A stretch of 64,000 nucleotides of DNA from Brachybacterium phenoliresistens (GTDB taxonomy: Bacteria > Actinomycetota > Actinomycetes > Actinomycetales > Dermabacteraceae), in the NCBI RefSeq assembly GCF_000576425.1, contig NZ_KK069995.1:62001-126000 (forward strand), written 5' to 3'. Position 1 is the first letter of the stretch; every line of letters starts with the position of its first letter. The translations under genes and the position numbers were made by a program. This document shows, in pieces, positions 1 to 64,000 of the stretch. The notes beneath the pieces were generated by a model that did not search any database, had not been told where the DNA came from, and was given only the letters and a program-made list of their open reading frames with translations.

Positions 1-1775
1 CCCTCGACCTGGACCTCGGCCTCGACGCCCGCCGGCAGGCCCTCGACCTGCACCGTGGAGAATCCGCCGGAGATCGATCCTGCCTCGAGCAGGGTCAGCC
101 CCTCGCCCAGCTGCGTGCCCTCGGGCAGCGTGACCTGCAGGGTCCCGCCCAGCACCGCGGTGCCCTGCACCTCGAGGACCGGCCGGCCGGAGTCGCCGGC
201 CTGCAGGGCGAGGACGCCGCCGTCCTCCTGCACGAAGCCGCCGCCGATCTCGAGCTTCTCCGGCACGGCCAGGGTTCCGCTCGTGAGCACGACGTCGCCC
301 GTGCCGAGGGCGCTGTCCGTCGCGGCCCGGAGCGTGCCGCCCTCGATCCGGGTGCCGCCGGTGTAGGCGTTGTCCCCGGACAGGGTCAGCTCGCCGGAGC
401 CGGAGAGGGTCAGCGCCCCGGCGCCCGCGATGTCGTTGCGCCAGTCGTCCTCGGCGGAGAACCCTCCGGTCGTGGCGTCCATGCTCACGGCCACGTCGGT
501 ATCGAAGGCGCCGTAGCCGCCCTGGGCGGCGAACAGGTTCAGGCGGCCCCAGCCCTCCGCATCGTCCAGCACCGGGTAGCCGGAGGCGAGGCCGGTGGAG
601 TGCAGGACCCAGCGGCGCTGCTCGGCGTCGAGGTAGGGGAAGCGGGTCTCGAGGAGGACCTCGGCGCCCTTGGGCACGCGCATCGCCTGGTCCGGGTCCC
701 CCGTCTGCTCGAAGCCGAAGGTCATGTACTCCGTGTACTGCGCGAGGTCCGCGTCGTAGTCGTCGTCCTCGTCGAGGACCCCGGCCTCCTGCTGCTGGGA
801 GAGCCATGCGGTGCCCTGCTCCGAGGCCTCCTGCTTCACGTCCGCGAGCGCGGGGTCGTTCAGCGCGCCGGCCGTGATCGCGGTGGACAGGGTGCGCCCG
901 CCCATCACGTCCAGCGGCGAATGCATGCCCAGCTGGATCCGGCTGGTCCCGATCTCGCTCGCGGTCAGCAGCATGTCGTCGTACTCCTGCGGGAAGGAGT
1001 ACGCCAGGCCGAGCGTGGCCATGCCGCCGGCGTTGGTGTGCCCCGAGGGGAACCCGCCGTCATTGGCGGCCTCCTCGACGGGCTTGCGCAGCGGATCCGC
1101 GTACTCGGGCACGTCGACCTCGTCGGACCAGCGGTAGGGGCGCGGGTACTGGTAGTACTTCTTGGCGTTGTTCGAGGTCGCCGAATGGTTGCGGATGTCG
1201 TCGACGAGCTGGACCGTCGCCCCCAGCTCTCCGTCGCGATCCGCCCAGACGCCGTTCTCGTTGCTGCCGTCGGAGTACTTGACCGTGGTGGCATCGGCCG
1301 GGATCTCGTCGGGGATGGTGGTGCCAGCGTTGACGCTCTCGCGGTAGGCCTCGGTGTACGGGCCCAGGCCCTCGGTGGCCGTGTAGTTCTGGTGGCGGCG
1401 GTCGATCACGTACGCCCGCTGCTGCTCGGGGTCGCTGGCGTCCTGGGAGATCTCGATGGCCTGGGCGATGTTGGAGTCGGCGATCCCCGGGGCGATCTTG
1501 GTGCCGTTGTCCCACTCCGTGCCCGGCTGCCACACCTCGAGCATCGGCGAGAGCACCCCGACGGCGGCGTTGCGGGTGGGGTCCAGGTCCGCGTCGGTGT
1601 TGGTGTCCCACACGTCGACGTAGTAGCCGTAGGCGCCGGCGTGCGGGGCGATCGCGGACTCGTCCAGGAGGTTCCGTCCGGGATCGGCCAGGGCGGGCAT
1701 CGCCGCACCCATGCAGGAGACGCCGAGGAGGGTGCCGCTGGTCAGCACGGAGTACAGGCGGGTGCGAGGGGACAT
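1..1775 (-). CDS. Secreted PAP2-family phosphatase with autotransporter-type beta repeats (3' end cut)
   Basis: Predicted exported acid phosphatase. The ATG at 1775 follows GAAAGG and opens a signal peptide ending near ALA-D31. The three PAP2 signatures appear in order: K-x6-RP (KKYYQYPRP), PSGHT (GFPSGHTNAG) and SR-x5-H-x3-D (SRIQLGMHSPLD). After the catalytic region comes a segment resembling autotransporter-associated beta strand repeats (AYTGGTRIEGGTLRA, ALGTGDVVLTSGTL). At least 591 codons are present; the C terminus lies beyond base 1. The role is probably release of phosphate from organic esters outside the cell. The beta-repeat tail on an actinobacterial phosphatase is unusual. Family assignment is firm; substrate is unknown. 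Confidence 0.88.
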   Translation of the reverse strand, partial: MSPRTRLYSVLTSGTLLGVSCMGAAMPALADPGRNLLDESAIAPHAGAYGYYVDVWDTNTDADLDPTRNAAVGVLSPMLEVWQPGTEWDNGTKIAPGIADSNIAQAIEISQDASDPEQQRAYVIDRRHQNYTATEGLGPYTEAYRESVNAGTTIPDEIPADATTVKYSDGSNENGVWADRDGELGATVQLVDDIRNHSATSNNAKKYYQYPRPYRWSDEVDVPEYADPLRKPVEEAANDGGFPSGHTNAGGMATLGLAYSFPQEYDDMLLTASEIGTSRIQLGMHSPLDVMGGRTLSTAITAGALNDPALADVKQEASEQGTAWLSQQQEAGVLDEDDDYDADLAQYTEYMTFGFEQTGDPDQAMRVPKGAEVLLETRFPYLDAEQRRWVLHSTGLASGYPVLDDAEGWGRLNLFAAQGGYGAFDTDVAVSMDATTGGFSAEDDWRNDIAGAGALTLSGSGELTLSGDNAYTGGTRIEGGTLRAATDSALGTGDVVLTSGTLAVPEKLEIGGGFVQEDGGVLALQAGDSGRPVLEVQGTAVLGGTLQVTLPEGTQLGEGLTLLEAGSISGGFSTVQVEGLPAGVEAEVQVE

Positions 1776-1968
1776 CGCAGCCTTTCGGGAAGGGGTCGGC
1801 CCAGGGGACGGACCGACGGCGGATAGGGCTTTCCCACAGCCTAGACAGGTCCGATGAACTCGTCATGAACCTCCGGCGGCATCCGATGCCGAAGCGCCCA
1901 GGCCGCGATGCAGGTCACAGCGCCGCCGACGGGGGGCGACGGCGAGAGGACTCGGCCTCGAGAGCGGG

Positions 1969-2040
1969 AGCGATGGAGGCGTGATCCGGAAGGACGCGAG
2001 CGATGGAGGCGTGATCCGGAAGGACGCGAGCGATGGAGGC
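1969..2040. repeat. 30-bp direct tandem repeat, about 2.4 copies
   Basis: Two identical 30-bp units lie at 1981-2010 and 2011-2040, preceded by a 12-base partial copy (AGCGATGGAGGC). They occupy the 310-bp gap between the divergent phosphatase gene (start 1775) and the repair gene at 2086, ending 45 bases before its ATG. The rest of the gap shows no gene. The unit is open in frame with the downstream gene, but no ribosome site precedes it, so I treat it as intergenic. Confidence 0.9.
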
Positions 2041-2085
2041 GACATCGACGACGCCCGCGGCGGCGCCATCGGGCATGATCGGCGC

Positions 2086-2544: not shown

Positions 2545-2587
2545 CGGGCGCGGCCTGGGCATGCAGAAGGGCCCGGGCATGCAGAAG

Positions 2588-2643
2588 AGGGCCTGTGAGG
2601 GCCGCCGACTGGGCGGACCATGTCGGCGGCCCTCACAGGCCCT
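2588..2643. terminator. Bidirectional hairpin terminator
   Basis: A perfect 22-bp inverted repeat (2588-2609 with 2622-2643) closes a 12-base loop between the convergent repair gene and aztD. No long T run follows, as is usual in high-GC actinobacteria. Confidence 0.8.
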
Positions 2644-2754
2644 TCCCTGCACGCGCCGCCCCGATGGGGACCGGGGCGGCGGGCAGGGAGTGCTGCCCGG
2701 CTCAGGACCGGGGCGGCGGTGCGGGGTGGGACGCAGCGCGTCAGGCGGACCGGA

Positions 2755-5362: not shown

Positions 5363-5383
5363 GCCGCCGTCGCGGAACGACGG

Positions 5384-5416
5384 AAGGGCCGATGACCAGC
5401 ACGGTCATCGGCCCTT
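5384..5416. terminator. Bidirectional hairpin terminator
   Basis: A perfect 14-bp stem (5384-5397 with 5403-5416) and 5-base loop lie between the convergent phosphotransferase gene and gdhA. Confidence 0.8.
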
Positions 5417-5446
5417 CGCGTCATCGGCCCTCGGGCCGGCAGCGGA

Positions 5447-7631
<2,185 letters not shown>

Positions 7632-7635: not shown

Positions 7636-8993
7636 GCCGCGCGCTCGCGGTCCGCGGCGGCGGGCAGGTCGAGGCGCAGCGCGACGCCGGCGCCGCCATC
7701 GGCCCGCTCCAGGCCCGCGCCGACGGCGATCCCGACCTGACCTCCGTGGAGCTGGGCCCGCTCCCCCATCGAGCGCAGGCCGAACCCCCGGGTGATGCCG
7801 GGCGGGGCGTCCGGGCCGCCGGGGACGTCCGCGCCCCTCCCGTCGTCGAGCACGAGGAGCCGCACGGCAGGACCCTCGTGCTCGAGCCGCAGCTCGGCGC
7901 GCGAGGCGCCCGCGTGCCGTACGACGTTCGTGAGCCCCTCCTGCGCGACGCGCAGCAGGAGCAGGCCCTGCTCCCGGCCGATGCCCCCGGTCCCCTCGCG
8001 CCGGAACGCGACCTCGAGCCCGGTGGAGGCGAAGGACTGGGCGAGGGCGGCGAGGGACCCCGCGACGTCGTCCGCGTCGGTCGTGACGGGGTGCATGGCA
8101 CGCACGACGCGCCGCATCTCCTCGAGGGCGTCGGAGGCGGTCGCCCGGGCGAGGCGGACCTCGGCAGCCGCCCGCTCGGGCTCGCGCTCGCGCATCCGGG
8201 CGCTGTAGTCCAGGCTCAGCCCGATGGCGGTGAGCCGATGGCCCAGGCCGTCGTGCAGCGCGGTCGCGATGCGGGCCCGCTCCTCCGCGAGGGCGAGATC
8301 CTGCGCATGCCCCCGTTCGCGGCGCAGCTGCATGTTGGCGTCCTCGAGATCGGCGTTGGCCTCCCGCAGCTGGGCGTTCGCCGCGGCCAGATCGGCATTG
8401 GCCCGCTCGGCGGCATCGAGCGCCGCCAGACGGTCGGCATCCAGCCGTTCGGCGCTGCGCAGCAGCACCGCGAACTCGATGCCGACCACGAGCAGCAGCG
8501 TCACCCCGATACCCTCGAGCATGCCCTGGGCGAGGCCCGTGCCGAGGAGGGCGTGGATCGCCACGGTCGTCGTCGCGATCAGCGCGGCGTAGGCGAGGCT
8601 GGCCAGCACCCCGAGCTCGAGGGTGAGCACGAGCGTGGCGACCCACTGCACGCCGATGCTCGAGAGGCTGTTGGACAGCAGGTATGCCGCGGCCGCGACC
8701 ACGGCGAAGGCGATCGCCACCCGGCGGGACGAGGCCGTGCCCGCTTCGCGTCGACGCCGCCAGAGCATCCACGTGCCGATGATCGCCGCAGCCGTCACGC
8801 ACCCGAGCGCCGCCACCCCCGGAGGCGTCCTCCCGGAGAGGTCGAGGAGGAACCGGCTCAGGAACAGCACGACGGCCATCCCGAGGACCACGTCCAGCAG
8901 GGCCGGGTGATGCACGCGCCGCCGGGTCACGGCCGCTTCGGGCCGGGACGGTCCGGCGGGCACGCGCGTCGGGATCGGGGCCGGGACTGGCAT
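7632..8993 (-). CDS. Sensor histidine kinase, DesK/NarX-like (HisKA_3)
   Basis: 453 residues. About six membrane segments span residues 25-185. A long coiled coil with ADLAAANAQLREAN-type repeats follows, then the dimerisation box EERARIATALHDGLGHRL with phosphoacceptor His near 247. The C-terminal ATPase domain has the N box (EGLTNVVRHA) and DDGRG. There is no large extracellular sensor, so the signal is probably in or near the membrane. Start ATG 8993 has TACGGT six bases upstream, so the mRNA is probably leaderless. It forms an operon with the response regulator and is divergent from a CPBP protease. Confidence 0.92.
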
Positions 8994-11023: not shown

Positions 11024-11779
11024 TCAGGCGCGGGCGGGGTTGCGCGGAAGCCACTCCTCGAGGGTGGTCGGGAAGATCTCGGCCCCCGCCACCGGGACGA
11101 GGGTGCGCTCGGCGATCTGCGCTCCGTAGTACGGGGCGCTGTCGTCGCGGACGACCGTGCGGCGGTCCCCGCGGAAGGCGAGGGCGCGCCGCGCGAACTC
11201 GTCCATCCCGAAGGCCTCCGGTCCTGCGATCTCTCGGTCTCCCGTGGGGGCGCCGGCGGCCGCGCGGGCGACCGCGGTGGCGACGTCCACCGCGGCGATG
11301 GGCTGGACGAGGGCGCCGGGGAGCGTGACCGTGTCCCCCTCGGTCGCGATGTCGGCGATCGCGCCGACGAACTCGAAGAACTGCGTGGCGTGCACGAGCG
11401 AGAAGCCGATGCCCGAGGCGCGGATCAGCGCCTCCTGCGCGGACTTCGCCGCAAAGTACGCGATGTCCTGCGGCCGGTCCGTGCCGACGATGGTGAGCGC
11501 GACGTGGTGCGCCACTCCCGCATCGGCCTCGGCCTCGAGGAGGTGGCGGGTCGAGGTCGTGAAGAACTCCATCACGTCCGCCGGGGCGAAGGAGGGGGAG
11601 TTCGAGACGTCCACGACGGTGTCCGCTCCGGCGAGCGCGTCGCGCAGCCCCGCGCCGGTGAACGCGTCGACCCCGGTGCGCGGCGATGCGGCGACCGCCT
11701 CGTGGCCGTGCGCGGCCAGCTTCTCGACGACCTTCGATCCGATGAGGCCGGTGCCTCCGATGACGATGATCCGTGCCAT
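11024..11779 (-). CDS. NAD(P)-binding atypical SDR (NmrA-like) oxidoreductase
   Basis: 251 residues with an N-terminal Rossmann motif GGTGLIG (8-14) after IIVI, the NmrA/atypical-SDR style DTVVDVSNSPSF and AAKSAQEALIRASGIGFSLVHATQFFEF region. The usual Tyr-x3-Lys pair of classical SDRs is not evident, as in the atypical subfamily. ATG 11779 follows GAAAGG. It is divergent from an ECF41 sigma gene, and a matching ECF-type promoter (TGTCACG, 16 bases, GGTC) lies upstream. ECF41 sigma genes are typically linked to a carboxymuconolactone decarboxylase, oxidoreductase or epimerase, so this is the probable sigma-controlled partner. Substrate unknown. Confidence 0.85.
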   Translation of the reverse strand: MARIIVIGGTGLIGSKVVEKLAAHGHEAVAASPRTGVDAFTGAGLRDALAGADTVVDVSNSPSFAPADVMEFFTTSTRHLLEAEADAGVAHHVALTIVGTDRPQDIAYFAAKSAQEALIRASGIGFSLVHATQFFEFVGAIADIATEGDTVTLPGALVQPIAAVDVATAVARAAAGAPTGDREIAGPEAFGMDEFARRALAFRGDRRTVVRDDSAPYYGAQIAERTLVPVAGAEIFPTTLEEWLPRNPARA

Positions 11780-11951: not shown

Positions 11952-13034
11952 ATGAGGATGCTGGTACGTTCGCAGCAGCACGGAAGGGGCGGTGCGGCGA
12001 CGATGGGCGAGGACGGCGATCTCGGGACGGCGGCGGCGGTCTTCGCCGCGCAGCGGCGGCGGCTGTTCGGCATCGCCTACCGGATGCTGGGCACGGCGGC
12101 CGATGCCGAGGACATCCTCCAGGAGACGTGGATCCGCTGGCAGGGCGCGGATCGCACGCAGGTCCAGGACCCGCCGGCCTTCCTCGCGACGATCACCACC
12201 CGGCTCGCGATCACCCAGCTGCAGTCCGCCCGGGTCCGCCGGGAGACGTACATCGGCCCCTGGCTCCCCGAACCGGTGTCCACGCAGGACGACCCCGCGC
12301 TCGGGGCCGAGCGCGGCGAGGCGCTCGACCTCGCCCTGCTGCTCACCCTGGAGCGGCTCACGCCGACCGAAAGGGCGGCGTACATCCTGCGGGAGGCGTT
12401 CGACTACCCCTACGCGCGCATCGCCGAGATCATCTCCTCGAGCGCGGTCAACGCCCGCCAGCTCGTGCGCCGGGCCCGCGCGCACCTGACGTCGGGGCGG
12501 CCGGCATCGGTCGCGCCGGCGCAGCAGCGGCGGCTGCTCGACGCCTTCCTCGCCGCGGCCCGCCGCGGCGACGTCCAGGAGCTGGAGGGCCTCCTGGCCC
12601 GGGACGTCGCCAGCCGCACCGACGGCAACGGGGTGAAGCTCGCCGCGAGGATCCCCGTCCACGGGCGCGCCCGCGTCGCCCGGTTCGTGGCGGCGTTCTC
12701 CCATCACTTCTGGACCGGCAAGACGATCGGATGGATCACGGTGAACGGCCAGGCCGCCGCCACCCTGAGCGAGGGAGGGCGGGTGACGACCCTGGTCACG
12801 GTGACGGCCTCCGAGGAGGGGATCGCGCAGATCCACTGGGTGATGAGCCCCGAGAAGCTCGGGCACGTGAATGCGGCGACCCAGCTCACCGCCCCCGGCG
12901 ACTCCACCCGTCGCACCGACCGCACCGACCCGGCCGACCCCGTCGAGCCCGCTCAGCCGGTCGAGCCGGCGGACGCGAGCGAGGGTCCGGTCCCGCCCGG
13001 AAATCCGGGTGCGGCGGCGGGAGGGCCGGGCTAG
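11952..13034 (+). CDS. ECF41-family RNA polymerase sigma factor (SigJ-like) with SnoaL-like C-terminal domain
   Basis: 360 residues. Region 2 (RRLFGIAYRMLGTAADAEDILQ... W) and region 4 (LTPTERAAYILREAFDYPYARIAEII) frame the ECF41 linker motif WLPEP. A SnoaL-like domain follows, with variants of the DGGGK (DGNGVK) and NPDKL (SPEKL) motifs that set ECF41 activity. The last 50 residues are a Pro/Asp/Glu-rich tail, with period-3 and period-6 repeats such as VEPAQPVEPAD, absent from typical members. ATG 11952 has AGGAAGGA eight bases upstream; ATG 12003 is the alternative. There is no anti-sigma gene, as usual for this family. Confidence 0.9.
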   Translation: MRMLVRSQQHGRGGAATMGEDGDLGTAAAVFAAQRRRLFGIAYRMLGTAADAEDILQETWIRWQGADRTQVQDPPAFLATITTRLAITQLQSARVRRETYIGPWLPEPVSTQDDPALGAERGEALDLALLLTLERLTPTERAAYILREAFDYPYARIAEIISSSAVNARQLVRRARAHLTSGRPASVAPAQQRRLLDAFLAAARRGDVQELEGLLARDVASRTDGNGVKLAARIPVHGRARVARFVAAFSHHFWTGKTIGWITVNGQAAATLSEGGRVTTLVTVTASEEGIAQIHWVMSPEKLGHVNAATQLTAPGDSTRRTDRTDPADPVEPAQPVEPADASEGPVPPGNPGAAAGGPG

Positions 13035-13729: not shown

Positions 13730-14536
13730 GTGAGCCGATCCCCGCACCCCGCCGTGCCCCGAGACCCCGCCGCGCCGCTCTCGCCCGCGGCTGCGCTGGC
13801 CATCGCCGCAGCGATCCATGCGGCCCGGTTCGGCGTGATCCTCGGCGCCCTGGCGCTGGGGCCGCTGCTGGGGATCAGCGGCTGGTACCTGGGGCTGTTC
13901 GCGAACCTCGCCTGCGTCGTCTTCGCGATCGTCCTGGTCACGGCGCTGCGCATGTGGTCGTCCTCGGGCATCGGCCGGCTGTGGCGCTCGCCCTGGGCGG
14001 CGCTGTGGCTGATCCCCTTCGTGGCCGAGGCGGGGATCTGGGCGCTGATCCCGGGCGGGCTCGCGGTGCCGCCGCCGGGCGTGGGCCTGTGGAGCCTGAC
14101 CCTGCTGCTGGTGGGGATCAACGAGGAGCTCACCAGCCGGGTCGCGGTGCTGGGGACGCTGCGCCGGGGCTTCGGCCGCACCGGCGCGGTGCTGGGCACG
14201 GCGGCCCTGTTCGGGCTGCAGCATCTCTCCGCCCTGGCGACGACCTCGCGCACCGTGGACGACGTGCTGGTCAACGTCCTGCTGTCGGGGATCGCCGGCT
14301 TCGCGATGGCCGCCTACCAGGCACGCTTCTCCTGGATCTGGCCCCTCATGCTCACCCATGCCGCCTCGGACTTCACGATCATCATGAGCGACTACGCGGC
14401 GCCTCTCTGGCTCGAGGTGATCGTGCACGTCGGGTTCATCGGCCTCGGCATCGCGCTGCTGCGCGGCGGCCGGGGAGGCGGCGACCCCGCTCCCCCACCG
14501 GCCGGGCCATCGCCCGGCATTGCCGAGCGGGCCTGA
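13730..14536 (+). CDS. CPBP-family intramembrane metalloprotease
   Basis: 268-residue membrane protein with about seven hydrophobic segments. Motif 1 is degenerate but usable: NEELTSRVAVLGTLRRGFG (Glu132-Glu133, Arg137); motif 2 is FGLQHLSAL and motif 3 LTHAASDF, giving the expected histidines. The start is GTG 13730, six bases after TACGGT, so it is probably leaderless. It faces the ABC operon and shares a hairpin with it. It is one of three CPBP proteases in the first 21 kb. Substrate unknown. Confidence 0.85.
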   Translation: MSRSPHPAVPRDPAAPLSPAAALAIAAAIHAARFGVILGALALGPLLGISGWYLGLFANLACVVFAIVLVTALRMWSSSGIGRLWRSPWAALWLIPFVAEAGIWALIPGGLAVPPPGVGLWSLTLLLVGINEELTSRVAVLGTLRRGFGRTGAVLGTAALFGLQHLSALATTSRTVDDVLVNVLLSGIAGFAMAAYQARFSWIWPLMLTHAASDFTIIMSDYAAPLWLEVIVHVGFIGLGIALLRGGRGGGDPAPPPAGPSPGIAERA

Positions 14537-15372: not shown

Positions 15373-16190
15373 GACGCGGTCTCCTGCGCGGTGGGGCCGG
15401 ACGGGGCCGTGGCGGGCGGGCCGTCATGGCCGATGAGGGCGAGGAACACGTCCTCGAGGGAGGGCTGCTTCTGCACCATCTCCACGGGGGCGGCGGGGAG
15501 CAGGGCGCGCAGCTCGGCGAGGGTGCCGGTGTGCACGATGCGGCCCTCGTGGAGGATCGCGATGCGGTCGGCGAGCTGCTCGGCCTCGTCGAGGTGCTGG
15601 GTGGTCAGCAGCACCGTCGTCCCGCCGGTGGCGAGCTCGCGGATGGTCCGCCACACCTCCAGGCGGGACTGCGGGTCCAGTCCCGTGGTCGGCTCGTCCA
15701 GGACGATCACCGGCGGGTCGCCGACCAGGCTCATGGCGATGTCCAGCCGGCGCCGCATGCCGCCGGAGTAGGTGCCGGCGCGGCGCCGGCCCGCCGCGGT
15801 CAGCGCGAAGCGCTCGAGCATCGCATCGGCCACGGCTGCGGGGCGGGGCAGGTGCCGCAGCCGCGCCACGAGGATCAGGTTCTCCCGCCCGGTGAGCACC
15901 TCGTCGACCGCGGCGAACTGGCCGGTCAGGCTGAGGGACTCCCGCACCTGCGGGGCCTCGGCCGCGACGTCGTGGCCGTCGACCTCGGCGGTGCCGGCAT
16001 CGGCCGCGAGCAGGGTGGCGAGGATCCGCACCAGCGTCGTCTTGCCGGCGCCGTTGGAGCCGAGCAGGGCGAGGATGCTGCCGCGGGCGACCTCGAGGTC
16101 GACCCCGCGCAGCACCGCGAGGTCCCCGAAGGACTTGGTCACCCCGCGCACGCGGAGGGCCGCAGGCGCGAGGGCGGGCGCCGCGGTCAT
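15369..16190 (-). CDS. ABC transporter ATP-binding protein (drug-exporter type)
   Basis: 273 residues. Walker A GSNGAGKTT (44-52), signature YSGGMRRRLDIAMSL, Walker B VIVLDEPTTGLDP and the switch histidine in LLTTQHLDEAEQLADRI are all intact. The C-terminal extension (LEDVFLALIGHDG) is typical of DrrA-like exporters. ATG 16190 overlaps the DUF1048 stop by four bases, and the stop overlaps the permease start, so the three products are made in step. Controlled by the PadR repressor at the operon head. Confidence 0.93.
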   Translation of the reverse strand: MTAAPALAPAALRVRGVTKSFGDLAVLRGVDLEVARGSILALLGSNGAGKTTLVRILATLLAADAGTAEVDGHDVAAEAPQVRESLSLTGQFAAVDEVLTGRENLILVARLRHLPRPAAVADAMLERFALTAAGRRRAGTYSGGMRRRLDIAMSLVGDPPVIVLDEPTTGLDPQSRLEVWRTIRELATGGTTVLLTTQHLDEAEQLADRIAILHEGRIVHTGTLAELRALLPAAPVEMVQKQPSLEDVFLALIGHDGPPATAPSGPTAQETAS

Positions 16191-44588: not shown

Positions 44589-45514
44589 TGCGCCGGCCCG
44601 TCCCGCCGCGGATCCCCGGCGTCCGCGGCCCGGGCCCCCGCGGCATCGCGGCCGATGCCGTCCCGGGCGCCCGCGGCATCGCGGCCGATGCCGCCGCCCC
44701 GGCCGTCCGCAGCACGGGGCGCGGCGGACGCCGCATCAGCCGCCGCGTGGCCGCCGCCGGCATCGGCGCGGTGGCGCTCGTGCCCCTGGGCGGCATGGTC
44801 GCCGCCGCCCTGAACGGCACCTCCCGCGCCCCCGACGCCGCGCCGAGCACCGGCCGGGCGCCCTCGGCCGCCCCGGCGGCGTCCTCCCCGGTGCCCACGC
44901 CCGATCCGCCGATGTTCTCCGACGTCGGCGCCGCCCACCCCGCCCGCGACGCGGTCGAATGGGCGGCCGGGGCCGGGGTGCTCCCCGGCCGTGAGGACGG
45001 CACCTTCGGCCCGGACGAGACCATGTCCCGCGGCGGGTTCGCGCTGGCCCTGCACCGCTACGCCGGCGCGCCCGAGACCGCGACGGACTCCCCCGTCTTC
45101 ACCGACCTGCCCGGGGACGCGGACCTCGCCGCCGCCCTGCAGTGGGCCGGGGCCCGAGGGATCCTGTGGGGCGACGGGGACATGGCCGTGCGAGCGGGGG
45201 CCCCGCTCACCCGCTCGGACCTGGCCGCCGCGCTGATGGCCGCCTTCGCGGGGGGCCTGGCCGCCACCGGCCGCGCCGTGCAGCCGGCGGCCTCGACGCC
45301 GTTCTCCGACGTCGACGACGCGGCCGCCTCGACCGTCCCGCTGCGCTGGGCCACCGCCGCCGGGGCGCTGGAGCGCAGCACCGTCGCCGCCGACGGCACG
45401 GCGCTGGCCGACGCGACGGGCCCGGGCGAGAACCTGCTCGTCCCCCAGCGCGGCACGACCCGCGCCGAGCTCGCGGTGGCGCTGCACGCGATGCAGGAGC
45501 TGCTGCGCTCCTGA
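44588..45514 (+). CDS. SLH-domain-like surface protein
   Basis: 308 residues. A basic N terminus with two PGxRGIAADA repeats leads to a membrane segment (VAAAGIGAVALVPLGGMVAAAL, about 55-77), then a Pro/Ala linker and three S-layer homology-like repeats (FSDVGAAHPARDAVEWAAGAGVLPGREDGTFGPDETMSR; FTDLPGDADLAAALQWA; FSDVDDAAAS). Probably anchored and cell-wall facing. ATG 44588 shares a base with the SGNH stop, so the two are coupled. Confidence 0.75.
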   Translation: MRRPVPPRIPGVRGPGPRGIAADAVPGARGIAADAAAPAVRSTGRGGRRISRRVAAAGIGAVALVPLGGMVAAALNGTSRAPDAAPSTGRAPSAAPAASSPVPTPDPPMFSDVGAAHPARDAVEWAAGAGVLPGREDGTFGPDETMSRGGFALALHRYAGAPETATDSPVFTDLPGDADLAAALQWAGARGILWGDGDMAVRAGAPLTRSDLAAALMAAFAGGLAATGRAVQPAASTPFSDVDDAAASTVPLRWATAAGALERSTVAADGTALADATGPGENLLVPQRGTTRAELAVALHAMQELLRS

Positions 45515-45551
45515 GGGCTGCTGCGCTCCTGAGAGCTGATGCGCTCCTGAG
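45498..45551. repeat. 18-bp tandem repeat, 3 copies, spanning a stop codon
   Basis: Copies at 45498-45515, 45516-45533 and 45534-45551 are variants of AGCTGCTGCGCTCCTGAG; the first includes the SLH-protein stop codon and each repeats the TGA. Read in frame each copy would encode ELLRS and stop. Confidence 0.9.
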
Positions 45552-45614
45552 CATCGGCCGCCTTCTGGGAAAAGCGGGTGAGCGCTGTCCGCCTCACGTC
45601 CTAGGGTGAGGCGC

Positions 45615-51594: not shown

Positions 51595-52241
51595 GCACCG
51601 GACGGGAGCCGCTGCGCCTCGTGCGCGGAGCGCTCGCGGCCACCCTCGCGACCGCCGTCGCGCTGCTGGGCCATGTGCTCGGCGGCGGGGATGTGCCCGC
51701 CTGGGCCGGGATCGCCCTGCCCTGGTGGCTGTCGATCACCGTCTGCACGGTGCTGGCCGGCTCGCGGTTCTCGGTGGCGCGCCTGGCCATGGCGGTCGCG
51801 GCCAGCCAGGGGCTCTTCCACCTGCTGTTCGTGGTCGGCACGCCGAGCCGCGGCGCCGCGGCCCTCTCCGACGCCCCGGGCGTGCACCTGCACCTCGGCG
51901 CCTCCCTCCCCGTCGCCTCCCAGCCCGCCGGATCGCTGGGGGCGGAGCATCTCGCCCATGCCGCCCAGCTCAGCGGGCCGATGCTGCTGGGGCACCTCGC
52001 CGCCACCGCGGCGACCGTCGCCGTCCTGCATCGCGGCGAGAGCGTGCTGCTGCGCGCCCTCGAGCTGGCCACGCTGGTGGGCGCGATCCTCGCCCGCGTG
52101 CTGACGCCGCTGCGCGTTCCCGATCTCCATCTCCCGGCGCGACGCCGCCCGTCCGCGCCGGTCTCGCATCTGCCGCGGCGCCGTCGCGCCCTGCTGCGCC
52201 CGCTGCTGCGGCGCGGTCCCCCGCAGCTCGTCGGTTCCTGA
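51591..52241 (+). CDS. Membrane protein of the copper/DyP operon
   Basis: 216 residues with about five hydrophobic segments. The middle contains a short His-rich loop (GVHLHLGASLPVA, then GAEHLAHAAQL) suited to metal binding on the outer face. The C terminus is strongly basic (RRRRALLRPLLRRG). No family is recognised. ATG 51591 overlaps the LysR stop by four bases and a copper chaperone gene follows, so a copper-related role is a reasonable inference. CACACT lies six bases upstream. Confidence 0.72.
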   Translation: MSTGREPLRLVRGALAATLATAVALLGHVLGGGDVPAWAGIALPWWLSITVCTVLAGSRFSVARLAMAVAASQGLFHLLFVVGTPSRGAAALSDAPGVHLHLGASLPVASQPAGSLGAEHLAHAAQLSGPMLLGHLAATAATVAVLHRGESVLLRALELATLVGAILARVLTPLRVPDLHLPARRRPSAPVSHLPRRRRALLRPLLRRGPPQLVGS

Positions 52242-52300: not shown

Positions 52301-52948
52301 ATGACTGCATCCGTTCCTGCCCGCCGTCCCGTCCTGCTCGCCCTGGGCTTGCTGGGCCTGGCCGCCTGCACGGGCCCCGACGACTCCGATCCGACCCCTG
52401 CCCCGGGCTCCGCCGCCTCGGACGGCGGGGGCGCCGCCGACTCCTCCGGGGCGGGCTCCGCCCCGGCCGATGCCCCGATCGCCGTGGCCGACGCCTGGGT
52501 CAAGGCCGCCGAGTCCGGCATGACCGCCGCCTTCGCGACCCTGACCAGCACGGCCGATGCGCCGATGCGCCTGGTCGGCGCCCGCAGCGAGGCCGCGCCC
52601 ACCATCCAGCTGCACGAGACCGCGTCCGACGGCTCCGGCGGCATGTCCATGCAGGAGAAGGAGGGCGGGTTCGAGATCCCCGCCGGCGGCACCCTGGTGC
52701 TCGAGCCCGGCGGCGACCACATCATGCTCCTCGACCTCGCCGAGCCGCTGCTGGCCGGGGACGCCGTCGAGATCGTGCTGCTGTTCGAGGACGGCGCCGA
52801 GGTGCCGTGCACGGCGCAGATCCGCGACTTCGCGGGCGCCCAGGAGGAGTACGCCAGCGACATGGACGGCATGGGCGACATGGAGGGCATGGGCGGCGCC
52901 TCCGACGGCGGCGGCGAGCACGCCGGCCACGAGGGCATGGGCCGATGA
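52301..52948 (+). CDS. Copper chaperone PCu(A)C lipoprotein
   Basis: 215 residues. Lipobox LAAC (about residue 20) and a disordered Ser/Gly linker precede the PCu(A)C fold: VADAWVKAAESGMTAAFATL, IQLHE, MSMQEKEGGFEIPAGGTLVLEPGGDHIMLLDL, giving the His and Met copper(I) ligands. The tail is Met/His/Asp rich (MDGMGDMEGMGG, HAGHEGMGR), likely extra copper binding. It passes copper to secreted enzymes or cytochrome oxidase. ATG 52301 follows GAAGGA. Its stop overlaps the peroxidase start. Confidence 0.9.
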   Translation: MTASVPARRPVLLALGLLGLAACTGPDDSDPTPAPGSAASDGGGAADSSGAGSAPADAPIAVADAWVKAAESGMTAAFATLTSTADAPMRLVGARSEAAPTIQLHETASDGSGGMSMQEKEGGFEIPAGGTLVLEPGGDHIMLLDLAEPLLAGDAVEIVLLFEDGAEVPCTAQIRDFAGAQEEYASDMDGMGDMEGMGGASDGGGEHAGHEGMGR

Positions 52949-54443: not shown

Positions 54444-55931
54444 GTGACCCCTCGCTTCCACACCCCCGCCGACGAGGCCCGCGCGCCGTACGTGATCGGG
54501 CTGGACGTGGGGTCCGGCGGCTCCCGGGCGGCGCTGTACGACGCGAGCGGCCGCGAGGTGGACCGGCGCAAGCACAAGGTCCCCCACGCCTTCACCACGG
54601 CGGACGACGGCACCTCCACCATCGACGCGGACCAGGTCGTCGAGGAGCTGCGCACCGGCATCGCCGCCGTCCTGGACGGCGCGCCCGGGCCGGTGGCCGG
54701 GATCGGCATCGACACCTTCGCCTCCTCCCTGGTGGTCGTGGACGAGGCCGGCCGCGCCATCACCCCCTGCATCACCTACGCCGACACCCGCTGCCGCGAC
54801 CAGGTGGCGCGGCTGCGCGAGCAGCTGGACACCGCCGCCCTGCACGACCGCACCGGCGCGCGGCTGCACTCCTCCTACCTGGCGCCGCGGCTGCTGTGGC
54901 TGCGCGAGCAGCACGGCGAGATCCTCGAGCGCGCCCACCGCGTGATGGCCCTGGGCGAGTACGTGGCCCTGCGCCTGCTGGGCACGGCGGCGCTGGGCAC
55001 CGCATCGGCCGCCTGGTCGGGGATGATCGACCGCCGCACCGGGCAGTACGTGCCGGAGCTGCTGGAGGCCGCGGGCGCCTCGGCCGATCTGCTGGGCGCC
55101 CCGCGCGACCCGCAGGACACGGTGGACGTCGCCGGCACGCCGCTGGCCCGGGAGTTCCCGCAGCTCGACGGCGCCCGCTGGGTGCCGGTGGTCGGCGACG
55201 GGCTCACCGCGAACCTCGGCATCGGCGCGCTGGGCGCCACCACCTGGGGCATCTCCACGGCGACGTCCGGGGCGATCCGCCAGCTCGTCGACACCGAGAT
55301 CGGCACCCTCCCCAGCGGCCTGTGGGCGTACCGCGTCGACGCCGGGCGCACCCTGGTCGGCTCCGCGATGAGCGACTGCGGGCGCCTGCTGGACTGGATC
55401 CGCACGCAGACGTCCCTGCCCGAGGATCTCTCGCAGCTGGACACCGACGCGCTCCTGTCCTCCCCGCCGAGCGCCGGGACGCCGCTGGTGGTGCCGTTCC
55501 TCTCCGGCGAGCGCGGCACGAAGTGGCGCGACGGCGCGCGGGCCGTGATCGCGAACGTCTCCGCCTCCACCACCGCGGAGGACCTGCTGCGCGGGGCGCT
55601 CGAGGGCCTGGCGCTGTCCTTCCTGCGGATCGCCGACCAGCTGCGCGAGATCAGCGGCGAGCCCGAGCGGATCGTGCTCTCCGGCGGCATGACCGACGTG
55701 GTGCCCGGCTGGCTGCATCTGCTGGCCGATGCGCTGGGCATGCCCGTGGACCACGTGGCGATCTCCCGCTCCACCATGCGCGGCACGGCGCTGCTGGCGC
55801 TCGAGCAGGTCGCCCCCGACGTGCCCCGCGCCGAGGTGCCGGTGCTGCGCCGGGTGGAGCCGGTCGCCGCGCACGCCGCCTACTACCGCGAGCGCCTCGC
55901 GCGCTTCGAGGCCTTCGGCGACCTCGCCTGA
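54444..55931 (+). CDS. FGGY-family carbohydrate kinase (gluconokinase-like)
   Basis: 495 residues. FGGY features: VIGLDVGSGGSRAALYDASG (phosphate 1), IGIDTFASSLVVVD, VVGDGLTANLGIGALG and the C-terminal IVLSGGMTDVVPGWLHLLADALG. The overall pattern is closest to gluconokinases, which feed gluconate into the pentose phosphate pathway, but xylulose or erythritol kinases cannot be ruled out. The start is GTG 54444 with GGAGG five bases upstream. It is followed by a Gfo/Idh/MocA gene, probably one operon for a sugar acid or polyol. Confidence 0.85.
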   Translation: MTPRFHTPADEARAPYVIGLDVGSGGSRAALYDASGREVDRRKHKVPHAFTTADDGTSTIDADQVVEELRTGIAAVLDGAPGPVAGIGIDTFASSLVVVDEAGRAITPCITYADTRCRDQVARLREQLDTAALHDRTGARLHSSYLAPRLLWLREQHGEILERAHRVMALGEYVALRLLGTAALGTASAAWSGMIDRRTGQYVPELLEAAGASADLLGAPRDPQDTVDVAGTPLAREFPQLDGARWVPVVGDGLTANLGIGALGATTWGISTATSGAIRQLVDTEIGTLPSGLWAYRVDAGRTLVGSAMSDCGRLLDWIRTQTSLPEDLSQLDTDALLSSPPSAGTPLVVPFLSGERGTKWRDGARAVIANVSASTTAEDLLRGALEGLALSFLRIADQLREISGEPERIVLSGGMTDVVPGWLHLLADALGMPVDHVAISRSTMRGTALLALEQVAPDVPRAEVPVLRRVEPVAAHAAYYRERLARFEAFGDLA

Positions 55932-56016: not shown

Positions 56017-57117
56017 ATGACCTCCCCCTCCCCTGCCGTCCCCCGCCCCGACCATCCGCTGCGGGTCGCCGTGGTGGGCGCCGGGGTGATCGGCGCCCAC
56101 CACTGCCGGGTCATCGCCACCACCGACGGGATCGAGCTGGGCGCCGTCGTGGACGTCGACCTCGAGCGGGCCGGGGCCCTCGCGGCCGAGCACGACGCCC
56201 CTGCCGTCGGCTCCCTCGCCGAGGCCCTCGCCCCGGAGCACGCCATCGACATCGTCGCCGTGTGCACGCCCTCGGGGCTGCACGCCGTCCTCGCGATCGA
56301 GGCGATGGAGGCTGGGCGCCACGTGCTCATCGAGAAGCCGATCGACGTGGTCGACGAGCGGGCCGCCCGCATCGACGAGGCCCGCCGGGCCGCCGGGGTG
56401 CAGGCCGCCGTGATCAGCCAGCACCGCTTCGACGCGGCCACCGAGCAGGTCGCCGCCGCGATCGCCGCCGGCCGCCTGGGCCGCGTCACCAGCGCCGTCG
56501 CCTCGGTGCCGTGGTGGCGGTCCCAGGAGTACTACGACTCCGGCCAGTGGCGCGGCACCCTCGCCCTGGACGGCGGCGGCGCCCTCATGAACCAGGGCGT
56601 GCACACGGTGGACCTGCTGTGCGCCTTCCTGGGCCGGCCGGTCGAGGTGTTCGGCTACACGGCTCTGCTGGCCCACGAGGGCATCGAGGTCGAGGACACC
56701 GCCGCGGGCGTGATCCGCTTCGACGGCGGCGCCCTGGGGCTCATCCACGCGACCACCGCTTCCTTCCCCGGCTCCGGCGTGCGCCTGCAGGTGCACGGCG
56801 ACCAGGGCGGGGCGACCATCGAATCCGACCGTCTCATCGCCCTGACCTGCCGCGACGCCGACGATGCCGGGGCCGATGCGGGGGCATCGGACGGCACCGG
56901 CGGGACGCGCGGGACCGGCGGCGCCGCCGAGGCCGCCGCCCCCGCCCCGGACTTCGCCCACGCGCACCGCCTCCAGTACGAGGACCTGGTCCGGGCGATC
57001 CGCACCGGCGGCGCGGTGCGGGTCGGCACCCGCGAGGCCCGCACCGCCCTCGCGGTGATTAACGGGCTGTACGAGTCGGCGCGCACGGGGGCGCCGGTCG
57101 CGATCCCCGAGTTCTGA
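56017..57117 (+). CDS. Gfo/Idh/MocA-family oxidoreductase
   Basis: 366 residues. Rossmann motif VAVVGAGVIGAHHCRVIA, then IVAVCTPSGLHA, the catalytic-site EKPIDV, and the C-terminal domain with GGGALMNQGVHTVDLLCAFLG (His and Asp of the active site). It oxidises or epimerises a sugar or inositol-like substrate with NAD(P). A Gly/Ala/Asp insertion (about residues 287-312) interrupts the C-terminal sheet. ATG 56017 has GAAGGAG upstream; 85 bases separate it from the kinase gene. Confidence 0.9.
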   Translation: MTSPSPAVPRPDHPLRVAVVGAGVIGAHHCRVIATTDGIELGAVVDVDLERAGALAAEHDAPAVGSLAEALAPEHAIDIVAVCTPSGLHAVLAIEAMEAGRHVLIEKPIDVVDERAARIDEARRAAGVQAAVISQHRFDAATEQVAAAIAAGRLGRVTSAVASVPWWRSQEYYDSGQWRGTLALDGGGALMNQGVHTVDLLCAFLGRPVEVFGYTALLAHEGIEVEDTAAGVIRFDGGALGLIHATTASFPGSGVRLQVHGDQGGATIESDRLIALTCRDADDAGADAGASDGTGGTRGTGGAAEAAAPAPDFAHAHRLQYEDLVRAIRTGGAVRVGTREARTALAVINGLYESARTGAPVAIPEF

Positions 57118-58723: not shown

Positions 58724-58937
58724 GGGGTGAGCGTGCCATGAGATGCCCCCGGCAGGGGCCGGCGGCCCGAAACCGGCAGCAGGGCCCGTTCCTCGGGCGC
58801 TGCGAGCATCGGCCGTCCGGCGGGCAGGGCCGCTACCGTGGGGACGGGCCGCTCCGCGACACGTCTGCTGGCCTGCGCCGGCCCGTCATCCGCCGTCACA
58901 CGGGAAGCCTCTGCCCCGATGCGTCGTTGCAGCGGAC

Positions 58938-60955: not shown

Positions 60956-62214
60956 CAGGCGCCGGCGGAGAGCACCGCGGCCGCCAGGGCCTCCGGGTCG
61001 GTCTCCTCGCCCAGCAGGGCGACCAGGGCCCGCACCCGGGCTCCGTCCTCGGCGAGCGCCGCCGCGGCGGCGATCTCCTCGGCGCGCGGGTCGGCGATCC
61101 GGTGGCCCGCCCGGGAGCGGGCGGTGACCCAGTCGGTCCAGGCGCGCACGGCGGCGACGCCCGCCGGGGAGCGCCCGGGACCGCCGCGCTCGGCGATCAC
61201 CGGCAGGATCCGCACGCGCAGCTTCTCGGAGCCGTCGGCCGCGATGCGCAGCAGCGCATCGGCCAGCCGCGGGTTCCGGAAGCGGGTGAGCAGGGCCGAG
61301 GTGTACTCGTCGAGCTCGGCCTCCGGCAGGTCGAGGGTCGCGCGGGCCTCGGCCCAGACCTCCTCCATCGCCGCGCGCACCGCCGGGTCCGCGACGGCCT
61401 GGTCGACACGCTCGTGCCCGGCGAGCTGGCCCGCGTAGGCGAGGAAGGTGTGGGCGCCGTTGAGCAGCCGCAGCTTGCGCCGCTCGTGCAGGGCCACGTC
61501 GCCGGTCAGCTGCGCGCCCGCGGCCTCCCAGGCGGGACGCCGGCCGCGGAAGGAGTCCTCCAGGACCCACTCGTGGAAGGGCTCGGTGACGACGGTGGCG
61601 CGGTCGTGGAAGCCCAGCCGCGTGCTCGCGAGGGCCATCTCCTCCTCCCCGGCGACCGGGGTGATCCGGTCGACCATGGTGGAGACGACGTCCACGTGGG
61701 CGTCGAACCAGTCCCGGGTCCCGGCATCCAGCGCGGCGAGCACGGCCCGGCGCAGCACCTCGCCGTTGCCGACGAGGTTGTCGCAGGAGACCAGGGCGAT
61801 CGGCTCCTCGACGCCGGCCTCGCGGCGGGCGCGCAGAGCAAGCGCCAGGCGGGCCGGGGCCGATGCCGCCGGGTCGGAGCCGGCCGCGTACCCCTTCTCG
61901 GTGATGGTCAGGGTGACCACCGCGGTGGCGGGATCGGCGATCACCCGGCGCAGGGCGCGCAGGTCCTCGGCCGGGAAGGCCTCGTCGATCACGGCGATCT
62001 CCTCGACCTCGTCGGTCTCGGGGCCGCGCACCACCAGGCCGTACCGGCCGCCCTGCGCCGTGAGGGTCTGCGCGATGGTCGGGGTGCGGCCGGTGAACGC
62101 GGTGACGTCCCAGCCGCCGGCGCGGGCGGTGTAGGCCAGGGTGTGGGCGCGGGCGAAGGCGCCGATGCCGAGGTGGACCAGGCGCGGACGCGGCACCGTG
62201 CCGGCGGGGCTCAT
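60955..62214 (-). CDS. uxuB: Mannitol dehydrogenase-family protein, probable fructuronate reductase
   Basis: 419 residues. The NAD-binding LVHLGIGAFARAHTLAYTARAGGWDVTAFTG, the ITEKGY motif, SCDNLVGNGEVLR and the catalytic KLRLLNGAHTFLAYAG block are those of polyol/mannonate 2-dehydrogenases. Coupling to uronate isomerase by a four-base overlap makes D-fructuronate (to mannonate) or tagaturonate (to altronate) the likely substrate. ATG 62214. The protein is slightly shorter than E. coli UxuB. The next enzyme (dehydratase) and a transporter are not in the window. Confidence 0.85.
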   Translation of the reverse strand: MSPAGTVPRPRLVHLGIGAFARAHTLAYTARAGGWDVTAFTGRTPTIAQTLTAQGGRYGLVVRGPETDEVEEIAVIDEAFPAEDLRALRRVIADPATAVVTLTITEKGYAAGSDPAASAPARLALALRARREAGVEEPIALVSCDNLVGNGEVLRRAVLAALDAGTRDWFDAHVDVVSTMVDRITPVAGEEEMALASTRLGFHDRATVVTEPFHEWVLEDSFRGRRPAWEAAGAQLTGDVALHERRKLRLLNGAHTFLAYAGQLAGHERVDQAVADPAVRAAMEEVWAEARATLDLPEAELDEYTSALLTRFRNPRLADALLRIAADGSEKLRVRILPVIAERGGPGRSPAGVAAVRAWTDWVTARSRAGHRIADPRAEEIAAAAALAEDGARVRALVALLGEETDPEALAAAVLSAGA

Positions 62215-63641
62215 CGGGCGCCGCCGGGCAGCGTGAAGACCTCGCGGGGATGCTGGGAGGGCAGGGTCTCCGCGAGCGCGGCGGCGTCCTCGATCCGCAT
62301 GCGGTGCTCCGCGACGAGGCTCGCGAGATGGTGCGCGTCCAGGCGGCGGGACATGTCGTGGCGCGCCGGGATCGAGCAGAAGGCGCGGGTGTCGTCGATG
62401 AACCCGCTGGTGCGGGTGTAGCCGATGGTCTCCGAGACGGCCCTGCGGTAGCGCAGGATCGCGTCCGGGGCGTCGATGAACCACCACGGCGCCCCCGCGT
62501 AGACGCTCGGGTAGAACCCGGCCAGCGGGGCGATCTCCCGGGAGAAGACGGTCTCGTCGATGGTGAACAGGACCAGCCGGAACCCCTCGGCGAGGCCCAC
62601 ATCGTTCAGCAGCGGGGCGAGGCCGTCGACGAAGGTGACCGCGGTGGGGATGTCGGCGCCCACATCGGCGCCGTACCGCTCGAAGGTGCCCCGGTGATGG
62701 TTCCGGTGCACGGCGGGGTGCAGGGTCATGACCAGGCCGTCGTCGGCGGCCATTCGGGCCTGGTCGGCCAGCAGGTGACGGCGCAGGGCGAGGGCGTCGG
62801 CCGGGTCGATGGACCCGCCGCGGGCCCGGGCGAACAGGCGTGCCGCATCGGCCTCGTCCAGGCGCGCGGTGCCCACGTCGGCATGGGAGTGGTCCGAGGA
62901 CACGGCCCCGTGGTCCCGGAAGTACAGGCGGCGCGCCCGCATCGCCGCGGTGAAGCCGGCGTAGTCCCCGGTGTCCACGCCGGCGGCCTCGCCGAGCGCG
63001 TCGGCGAGCTGCGCGAAGTCCTCGCGGGCCGGCTCGAGGTACTTGTCCGGGCGGAACGTCGGGACGACCAGCCCGGCGAAGTCCGGGTCGTCGGCCAGGG
63101 CCCGGTGCGCCGCCAGATCGTCCGCGGGGTCGTCGGTCGTGGCGAGGACCTCGATGCGGAACTGGTCGAACAGGGCGCGGGGGCGGAACTCGGGGCGCGC
63201 CAGCCGCGCGGCGATGTGGTCGTACAGCTCGTCGGCCGTGCCCGGGGTCAGCACCTTCTCGATGCCGAAGACGTCATGGAACTCGTGCTCCATCCACAGG
63301 CGCGAGGGCGTGCCGGCGTAGGCGTGCCAGTGCTCGGCCAGCAGGCGCCAGGCCCGCCGGGCATCGGCCTCCTCGAGCGGGCCGCGGCCCACGCCGAGAT
63401 CCGCGAGGGAGACGCCGCGCGCATGCAGCAGGCGGGTCACGTAGTGGTCGGGGGTGATGAACAGGCTCGTGGGGTCCCGGAAGGGCGTGTCCTCGACCAG
63501 CATGGCGGGGTCGACGTGCCCGTGCGGGGAGACGATCGGCTGCGACGCCATGCGTCCGTACAGTTCGCGCGCGATGTCGCGGACCGCCGGGTCGCGGGGC
63601 AGAAGGCGGTCCGGATGGGGGACGAAGGCGTCGTTGCTCAT
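62211..63641 (-). CDS. uxaC: Uronate isomerase
   Basis: 476 residues of the UxaC amidohydrolase family: HxH motif SPHGHVDPAML (His40, His42), FRPDKYLEP, SDHSHADVG and the C-terminal GYTRTSGFIDDTRAFCSIPARHDMSRR with conserved Arg and Asp. It converts glucuronate to fructuronate or galacturonate to tagaturonate in the cytoplasm. ATG 63641 is preceded by GAGG at four bases; ATGs at 63650 and 63653 are in-frame alternatives. First gene of the two-gene operon. Confidence 0.93.
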   Translation of the reverse strand: MSNDAFVPHPDRLLPRDPAVRDIARELYGRMASQPIVSPHGHVDPAMLVEDTPFRDPTSLFITPDHYVTRLLHARGVSLADLGVGRGPLEEADARRAWRLLAEHWHAYAGTPSRLWMEHEFHDVFGIEKVLTPGTADELYDHIAARLARPEFRPRALFDQFRIEVLATTDDPADDLAAHRALADDPDFAGLVVPTFRPDKYLEPAREDFAQLADALGEAAGVDTGDYAGFTAAMRARRLYFRDHGAVSSDHSHADVGTARLDEADAARLFARARGGSIDPADALALRRHLLADQARMAADDGLVMTLHPAVHRNHHRGTFERYGADVGADIPTAVTFVDGLAPLLNDVGLAEGFRLVLFTIDETVFSREIAPLAGFYPSVYAGAPWWFIDAPDAILRYRRAVSETIGYTRTSGFIDDTRAFCSIPARHDMSRRLDAHHLASLVAEHRMRIEDAAALAETLPSQHPREVFTLPGGAR

Positions 63642-63845
63642 GGGCCTCATCATCCGGACGGCGGACGGGCCGGGCATCGTGTTGCCGCAGGTTGCCGGGC
63701 CGCGGCCGGCCGTCCCGGGGTCCGGGCGGCCCGTGCCGGGAACCGGACATCTCGGTAGGTTCGGGGCAGGCCCGCGGCGATCGACGAGGCCCGGGCGGTC
63801 CGGCGCCCGTGTCCCCCGCAGGTCCGGAGACGAGGCAGGAGCATC

Positions 63846-64000
63846 ATGCAGGAGCAGCGATTCGCGTACGCGGTGAGCGCGCGCACGGCGGTGGGCGGTC
63901 TCCTGCTGGGGCTGGTGTTCCTCGGCGCGAGCGGATGGGGGCTCGTGCACGGCTGGGGGATCTCGCTGTACCTGGCGCACTTCGGCGCGGACGTGGCCCG
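63846..64000 (+). CDS. Membrane protein, 5' part only
   Basis: The first 51 codons are present: MQEQRFAYAVSARTAVGG, a hydrophobic helix (LLLGLVFLGASGWGLV) and LYLAHFGADVA before the window ends. ATG 63846 has CAGGAG four bases upstream. Divergent from uxaC across 204 bases with no clear operator. Function cannot be judged from this fragment. Confidence 0.55.
   Translation, partial: MQEQRFAYAVSARTAVGGLLLGLVFLGASGWGLVHGWGISLYLAHFGADVA

Follow-up and report, generated by a model that had tools for sequence, protein, structure and literature searches.

A nine-letter word, GCATCGGCC (GGCCGATGC on the other strand), is iterated throughout the genome of Brachybacterium phenoliresistens as a DNA-level element, accumulating whatever its effect on codons. 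We analysed it in a stretch of 64,000 nt of this species (contig NZ_KK069995.1, positions 62,001 to 126,000; assembly GCF_000576425.1), referred to as the window, and in the genome to which the window belongs (G000; 4,188,165 bases in 35 contigs). The letters of the word differ between related species, so that they can be called dialects. The explanation that we favour, tentatively and at somewhat less than even probability, is that GGCCGATGC is an uptake-type self-recognition word.

Abundance of the word in the window and in the genome

The window contains 35 exact copies of GCATCGGCC/GGCCGATGC, 19 on the plus and 16 on the minus strand, compared to a mean of 3.59 and a maximum of 8 in 100 dinucleotide shuffles. 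A preliminary description of the window had recognized this overuse, putting the number slightly too low at about 30; 22 of the 23 positions that it listed are correct within 2 bases, while the copy placed at 54990 actually begins at 55002. According to our own codon-based gene calls, 33 of the copies lie within predicted genes. The other two, at 45551 and 58806 (given earlier as 58805), are noncoding, in agreement with their previous assignment as intergenic. Within genes, 21 copies read Ala-Asp-Ala (GCC GAT GCN), six Ala-Ser-Ala (GCA TCG GCC), three Gly-Ile-Gly, two Pro-Met and one His-Arg. The copies are as follows.

1291..1299, plus strand, word GCATCGGCC, in gene, Ala-Asp-Ala
5472..5480, plus strand, word, in gene, Ala-Asp-Ala
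7976..7984, minus strand, word, in gene, Gly-Ile-Gly
11520..11528, plus strand, word, in gene, Ala-Asp-Ala
12098..12106, minus strand, word, in gene, Ala-Asp-Ala
13968..13976, plus strand, word, in gene, Gly-Ile-Gly
15823..15831, plus strand, word, in gene, Ala-Asp-Ala
15997..16005, plus strand, word, in gene, Ala-Asp-Ala
20883..20891, minus strand, word, in gene, His-Arg
22277..22285, plus strand, word, in gene, Ala-Ser-Ala
23689..23697, plus strand, word, in gene, Ala-Asp-Ala
28864..28872, minus strand, word, in gene, Ala-Asp-Ala
32502..32510, minus strand, word, in gene, Ala-Asp-Ala
36725..36733, plus strand, word, in gene, Gly-Ile-Gly
37709..37717, minus strand, word, in gene, Ala-Asp-Ala
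40693..40701, plus strand, word, in gene, Pro-Met
44064..44072, plus strand, word, in gene, Ala-Ser-Ala
44650..44658, minus strand, word, in gene, Ala-Asp-Ala
44683..44691, minus strand, word, in gene, Ala-Asp-Ala
45551..45559, plus strand, word, noncoding
46986..46994, plus strand, word, in gene, Ala-Ser-Ala
47076..47084, plus strand, word, in gene, Ala-Ser-Ala
47294..47302, minus strand, word, in gene, Ala-Asp-Ala
47531..47539, minus strand, word, in gene, Ala-Asp-Ala
51976..51984, minus strand, word, in gene, Pro-Met
52465..52473, minus strand, word, in gene, Ala-Asp-Ala
52552..52560, minus strand, word, in gene, Ala-Asp-Ala
55002..55010, plus strand, word, in gene, Ala-Ser-Ala
55724..55732, minus strand, word, in gene, Ala-Asp-Ala
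56871..56879, minus strand, word, in gene, Ala-Asp-Ala
58806..58814, plus strand, word, noncoding
61256..61264, plus strand, word, in gene, Ala-Asp-Ala
61858..61866, minus strand, word, in gene, Ala-Ser-Ala
62845..62853, plus strand, word, in gene, Ala-Asp-Ala
63361..63369, plus strand, word, in gene, Ala-Asp-Ala

The enrichment holds genome-wide: G000 carries 824 + 857 = 1681 copies, that is 401 per Mb or one per 2.5 kb, versus 177 copies of the reversed word. Since the reversed word is a poor yardstick (the control gives merely 22 copies in the congener G022), we based our judgement on codon nulls and density per Mb. Codon work in G000 was done on 20 stretches of 20 kb together with the window, altogether 464 kb of 4.19 Mb (11%), in which our gene finder called 404 genes (88% coding, third-position G+C 96%). 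Only nine-mers found 12 or more times, 9646 in number, were ranked, and noncoding expectations were taken from a second-order Markov model. This sample holds 180 copies of the word, and all 21 stretches contain it; one low-density stretch, L013, has 1 word in 20 kb, which by a rough estimate is not significant among 21 stretches.

Coding copies in the sample number 164, whereas shuffling of synonymous codons within genes yields 38.0 (SD 5.9), and against this null it takes first place among the 9646 nine-mers (164 versus 39.9 in the ranking run). A codon-pair-aware null also fails to predict the count, giving 54.2 (SD 3.9) when trained on G000 and 36.7 (SD 6.2) when trained on 13 congeners, and the word keeps rank 1 of 9646 against it (164 versus 52.4 in the ranking). 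Neither a codon-pair model that accounts for the count nor a loss of enrichment across the genome, the two outcomes named beforehand as counter-evidence in the preliminary description, was thus observed. The excess over the codon shuffle is seen in every phase: 23 versus 0.6 in phase W0 (GCA TCG GCC), 48 versus 27.9 in W1 (Gly-Ile-Gly) and 7 versus 0.6 in W2 (CAT CGG) and, on the other strand, 1 versus 0.1 in R0 (a single copy), 7 versus 2.0 in R1 and 78 versus 6.8 in R2 (GCC GAT GC). Noncoding DNA of the sample contains 15 copies where 3.5 are expected. Because the excess extends over all six phases, noncoding DNA and both codon nulls, we conclude that the word is a DNA-level element, which bears out the earlier statement that the effect is not at the protein level. 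In a genome of 73.6% G+C, an ordinary preference for particular codons, dicodons or amino acids would account for part of the count, as in the Gly-Ile-Gly phase, and many other words are likewise 1.5–2.5-fold over the shuffle null, but as the explanation of the word it is highly improbable and is rejected on the excess in rare-codon phases, the noncoding excess, the first rank and the shortfall of the codon-pair model.

Word density is lower in genes of the highest quartile for third-position G+C than in other genes (0.28 per kb versus 0.44–0.46).

Dialects in Brachybacterium and in the order

The samples of other genomes used to compare species measure 40–400 kb; densities in other genomes were derived from rounded genome sizes. 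The 37 other Brachybacterium genomes have 150–391 copies of GCATCGGCC each, at most about 129 per Mb versus 401 in G000. A second word, CCGTCGGCC (equal to GGCCGACGG), has 2241 copies in G002 and 1899 in G034 compared to 655 in G000, and is low in G022, G033 and G012 (369–468). In genes, GGCCGACGG is 2.4–3.6-fold over-represented in seven of the 13 sampled congeners (G002, G010, G013, G034, G007, G004 and G006). The noncoding excess among these seven reaches about 15-fold, with 34 copies versus 3.2 expected in G002, 10 versus 1.7 in G010, 28 versus 1.8 in G013, 15 versus 1.0 in G034, 7 versus 0.6 in G007, 4 versus 1.2 in G004 and 2 versus 0.7 in G006. In G033, G012 and G022 it stands at 0.91–1.19-fold in genes, and these species over-use neither word. 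Since many G+C-rich words are 1.5–2.5-fold over the null in these genomes, the values of 1.65–1.79-fold in genes of G017, G009 and G019 are not taken as a dialect. Longer forms are also enriched in genes of the 400-kb sample of G002, namely CCCCGTCGGCC (71 versus 6.6) and CCCGTCGGCC (121 versus 15.9). The two dialects have in common the letters GGCCGA and the G that follows two positions on, and related species thus carry variants of a shared core, GGCCGATGC in G000 and GGCCGACGG in seven of the 13 congeners.

Other words are enriched in some congeners. In G017 (L098–L107) the palindrome-containing CACCGGTGC is enriched in genes (37 versus 4.2, or 7.4 in a repeat) together with other 9–10-mers such as ACCCGATCT, and in G033 CACCGGTGCC occurs 12 times versus 1.1.

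We also counted GCATCGGCC in 297 genomes taken from the order. Densities above about 200 per Mb are confined to G000 and to a single genus in a different family (genus g15, family f10), where 14 of 22 genomes reach them. The highest genome of that genus, G130, has 2018 copies in 2.7 Mb, while word-poor members have 134 (G291), 201 (G242) and 203 (G318). A 60-kb sample of G130 again has the word as its top nine-mer in genes (39 versus 7.4, or 8.6 in a repeat), and 4.2 kb of noncoding DNA contain 10 copies where 0.1 are expected. The word-poor G318 over-uses GGCCGACGC instead (12 versus 3.8 in a 40-kb sample). The longer form CCCCGTCGGCC occurs 829 times versus 8 for its reverse in G002, and within the same family 324 versus 13 times in G043 and 158 versus 10 times in G040; no sampled genome outside the family of Brachybacterium exceeds 91 copies.

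Word-rich and word-poor species thus coexist in genus g15, and their C/T difference resembles that seen in Brachybacterium.

A proposed uptake-type word

The way in which the dialects are distributed among species suggests an element that resembles an uptake sequence. If GGCCGATGC is such a word, DNA carrying the local word would be preferentially bound and imported during natural transformation, the imported conspecific DNA would recombine into the chromosome, and biased recombination would spread copies of the word and keep them. If a putative receptor changed its specificity, a genome would then move from GGCCGACGG, the dialect widespread in the genus, to GGCCGATGC. A shade more cautiously still, we suggest that Actinobacteria of this order may have DNA uptake sequences (DUS) with species dialects: GGCCGATGC in G000 and in the other-family genus, either independently or via a shared receptor, and CGGCCGACGGGG in G002.

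The likeness to DUS lies in a word that is non-palindromic, unpolarised, dense in and between genes, varying between sister species and not over-used in others. In the available portion of a study of the Neisseriaceae (PMC3630211), DUS are likewise non-palindromic, present in thousands of copies in coding and intergenic DNA, and found as core-sharing variants in related species with none in some relatives. The counts given there are 2245–5918, and the copy numbers here (1681 in G000, 2018 in G130) approach the lower of them. Neisseriaceae DUS also form inverse pairs in intergenic DNA (same portion of PMC3630211); here the enrichment of such pairs is only moderate, and the small sample of G130 has none. 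We scored an inverse copy of at least 7 letters within 40 bases, comparing noncoding sites to random noncoding positions. Pairs exceed the random level in G000 (7 of 36 sites, 2.5 expected), G002 (22 of 57, 5.8 expected), G010 (8 of 17, 1.8 expected), G013 (9 of 38, 3.3 expected) and G007 (4 of 8, 0.6 expected), and weakly in G034 (3 of 18, 1.5 expected); none was found at the 7 noncoding sites of the word-less G033 (0.4 expected). In the window, one such pair forms a clean hairpin at 5383–5417. Unlike for DUS, the host here is a high-G+C Gram-positive, the density is lower (401 per Mb) and any receptor is putative.

The uptake signal sequence (USS) of the Pasteurellaceae has a density of about one per 1–2.5 kb and an AT-rich flank. 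The word described here has a similar density and, like the 9-bp USS (PMC1626085, partial text), a 9-base core; it differs in sequence and phylum, and in G000 the AT-rich flank is not seen.

Competence genes are present. In G000, comEA (SLBB + HHH_3), comEC and holA lie in a row, and ComEC was found in 38 of 38 Brachybacterium genomes. Micrococcus luteus is a member of the same order as Brachybacterium. This species transforms naturally with ComEC and Flp pili, according to the accessible part of PMC4322843.

Several observations weigh against an uptake-type word. ComEC is also present in G033, G012 and G022, which over-use neither word, and therefore ComEC does not predict the word. Word spacing in G000 is close to random, and a gene-end bias of the word was not found in this genome (in G002 the bias is weak, restricted to the opposite orientation, p 0.024). 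Strict pairs, with both full cores 8–40 apart, amount in G000 to only two overlapping noncoding pairs at one locus, and G130 has inverse pairs at 0 of 10 noncoding sites (1.3 expected; small 4.2-kb sample). The T letter is mostly lineage-specific: among words aligned without gaps, congeners share 11 of 97 GAT codons inside words, compared to 160 of 624 outside them, and a context-specific C-to-T bias could also give a lineage-specific T letter. Reviews, in the portions available, mention uptake sequences for Neisseria only (PMC12236230, PMC6370729). Because ComEC is not predictive, strict pairs are rare and the receptor is only putative, we describe the word, tentatively and at less than even probability, as working like an uptake sequence rather than as a classed member.

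Were an uptake-type word confirmed, a switch of dialect would act as a barrier that keeps sister species from exchanging genes, and there would be sequence-specific self-recognition in Gram-positive transformation, of which we know of no earlier case. Few groups are known to us to have dialect-forming words across the genome (Neisseriaceae, Pasteurellaceae and cyanobacteria), and a system in Actinobacteria would add to them. With word-rich and word-less sister species, and one word in two families, word origin and switching are directly testable; the word, placed on DNA, might also serve as a simple handle for transforming organisms that are hard to engineer. In one open-access library, none of the titles among the matches listed concerned such a word in Actinobacteria, which is not proof of absence, and we found no paper that mentions 'uptake sequence' together with 'Micrococcales'. 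Text matches to the letters of the word, among the matches listed, were primers or unrelated papers, and a term search did not find the core letters in a 2010 survey of abundant octamers (PMC2843746).

Methylation and chromosome architecture as alternatives

The alternative that survives best, although we consider it unlikely, is that the word resembles the cyanobacterial highly iterated palindrome (HIP) words, that is, a site for an orphan methyltransferase or other DNA marking, kept because the mark directs mismatch repair or other housekeeping. Such mark-directed accumulation has been proposed for HIP1, and HIP1 and its alternates are likewise short, high-frequency, lineage-variable words that others replace in some lineages (available part of PMC4390886). 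In addition, G000 has one open frame matching a C5-methyltransferase in two pieces, and G017 over-uses the palindrome-containing CACCGGTGC. However, HIP words are palindromes tied to methyltransferases (same part of PMC4390886), whereas the word here is not a palindrome. Among 10 GGCCGATGC-rich genomes, PF00145 was found in six and PF01555 in two. By Pfam, PF00145 is absent from G130, G221, G089 and G252, and G221 and G089 have neither family; the search covered these two families and no others such as Type I or IIG. The same two families were not found in G010, G034 and G011, which have many GGCCGACGG copies. A simple methylation cause is thus weakened, because two word-rich genomes lack both searched families.

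Slightly less likely again is that a protein of the nucleoid, of replication-repair or of recombination binds the word, as a site without polarity that is scattered for chromosome architecture or repair. Consistent with this, copies occur in all 21 sampled stretches with near-random spacing and without strand bias, in coding as well as noncoding DNA. However, the specificity of housekeeping DNA-binding proteins is rarely altered from one sister species to the next, while here the dialect varies inside a single genus and GGCCGATGC reappears in a different family. Polarised sites are disfavoured as well. Chi and the FtsK orienting polar sequences (KOPS) are over-represented 8-mers in coding DNA that are strand-biased along replichores; the over-representation is common to the word described here, but the strand bias is not. 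Copies number 92/88 on the two strands of G000, 112/109 in G002 and 40/38 in G013, and strand heterogeneity between stretches is not significant (p 0.47, 0.29 and 0.58, respectively; the value for G002 comes from 20 stretches of one contig). The test was made on stretches along contigs, without located origin and terminus. Because the copies are balanced between strands in these three genomes, Chi and segregation (KOPS) sites are disfavoured. The DNA-level role proposed in the preliminary description is therefore upheld by phases, noncoding copies and nulls, while of the particular roles that it suggested a Chi-like or segregation site gains no support, the strand skew being absent, and a modification target loses ground as far as C5-methylation is concerned (PF00145 absent in 4 of 10 word-rich genomes and both families in 2 of 10, with PF00145 and PF01555 the only families searched).

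Letters of the word and the C/T position

GGCCGATGC is not self-complementary. Its core is GGCCGATG, and in G000 a C is preferred after the core and mildly preferred before it; the tabulated flanks in this genome show no AT-rich flank and add no palindrome to the word. In Asp codons, T is found in 78 of 100 cases when all six other letters match, compared to 6–12% with three matches or fewer, and it drops to 4 of 41 when G follows the core.

These data bear on an improbable alternative, in which an older GGCCGACGC word was changed in this lineage by context-specific C-to-T mutation at GCCGACGC, for instance when a methylated C of GGCCGACGC is deaminated. In its favour, the contexts of synonymous C/T sites with a strong G000-specific T excess are all variants of CCGA[Y]G, headed by GCCGA[Y]GC with a T fraction of 0.73 in G000 versus 0.17 in six congeners (z 12.1), and GGCCGACGC is depleted in G000 (37 versus 64.8). 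Such a mutation cannot raise the GGCCGAYGC sum, yet this sum is 201 versus 103.8 in genes of G000 and 22 versus 8.6 in noncoding DNA; in genes of the congeners G002, G010 and G013 it is also raised, 1.4–1.5-fold. Since the conditional test at synonymous positions is confounded for G000 by the C-to-T model, the C/T letter was pooled in a repeat of the test. With pooling, the first G is found in 127 of 167 cases (84 expected) and the fourth-letter C in 127 of 142 (77 expected), and in both G000 and G002 a preference for the other word letters persists, while the word-less G033, G012 and G022 show none for the first G. Since the other letters remain preferred with C/T pooled, more than one mutable base is involved.

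Alignments of the words to congeners were made by BLAST against sampled congener DNA, with orthology assigned by similarity; from 262 word alignments, 62 with a gap in the word and 42 with a gap in the flank were set aside, leaving 158 clean ones. In these, A at word position 3 matches the congeners in 9% of cases and the other letters in 61–92%, and this, like the low share of in-word GAT found in congeners, is in line with a contributing C-to-T tendency. Against C-to-T change as the sole cause, among 46 words aligned without gaps, 34 differ from the best congener at one or more letters besides the C/T letter. Furthermore, GGCCGATGC-rich genomes without PF00145 exist. A single-base C-to-T change as the whole story is ruled out by the pooled-letter test, the GGCCGAYGC sum and the 34 of 46 alignments, although C-to-T conversion may have been a secondary step.

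Local arrays and other words

One intergenic gap of the window contains cores in close proximity.

5383..5417, no strand assigned, hairpin formed by two inverted copies of core GGCCGATG in the gap between convergent genes; likely a terminator
5422..5429, minus strand, further copy of core GGCCGATG beside the hairpin, in the same convergent gap

This convergent gap thus has three cores, inverted or direct, at 5383–5429, the first two followed by A and not by C. In noncoding DNA of the sample, GGCCGATGA occurs 9 times versus 1.6, with some of the copies coming from this gap. A denser cluster is found in G002 (L141:12418–12554), where a single convergent gap has six GGCCGACGG-dialect cores within about 140 bases. 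In this genome, 30 word intervals are shorter than 50 bases where 6.2 are expected, and therefore local word arrays form in G002.

Beyond the word itself, CTCGCGCAG (112 versus 59.3) and GAGGATC (290 versus 110.2) also exceed the codon-shuffle null in the G000 sample, and CCCCCC is strongly depleted in genes (52 versus 627).

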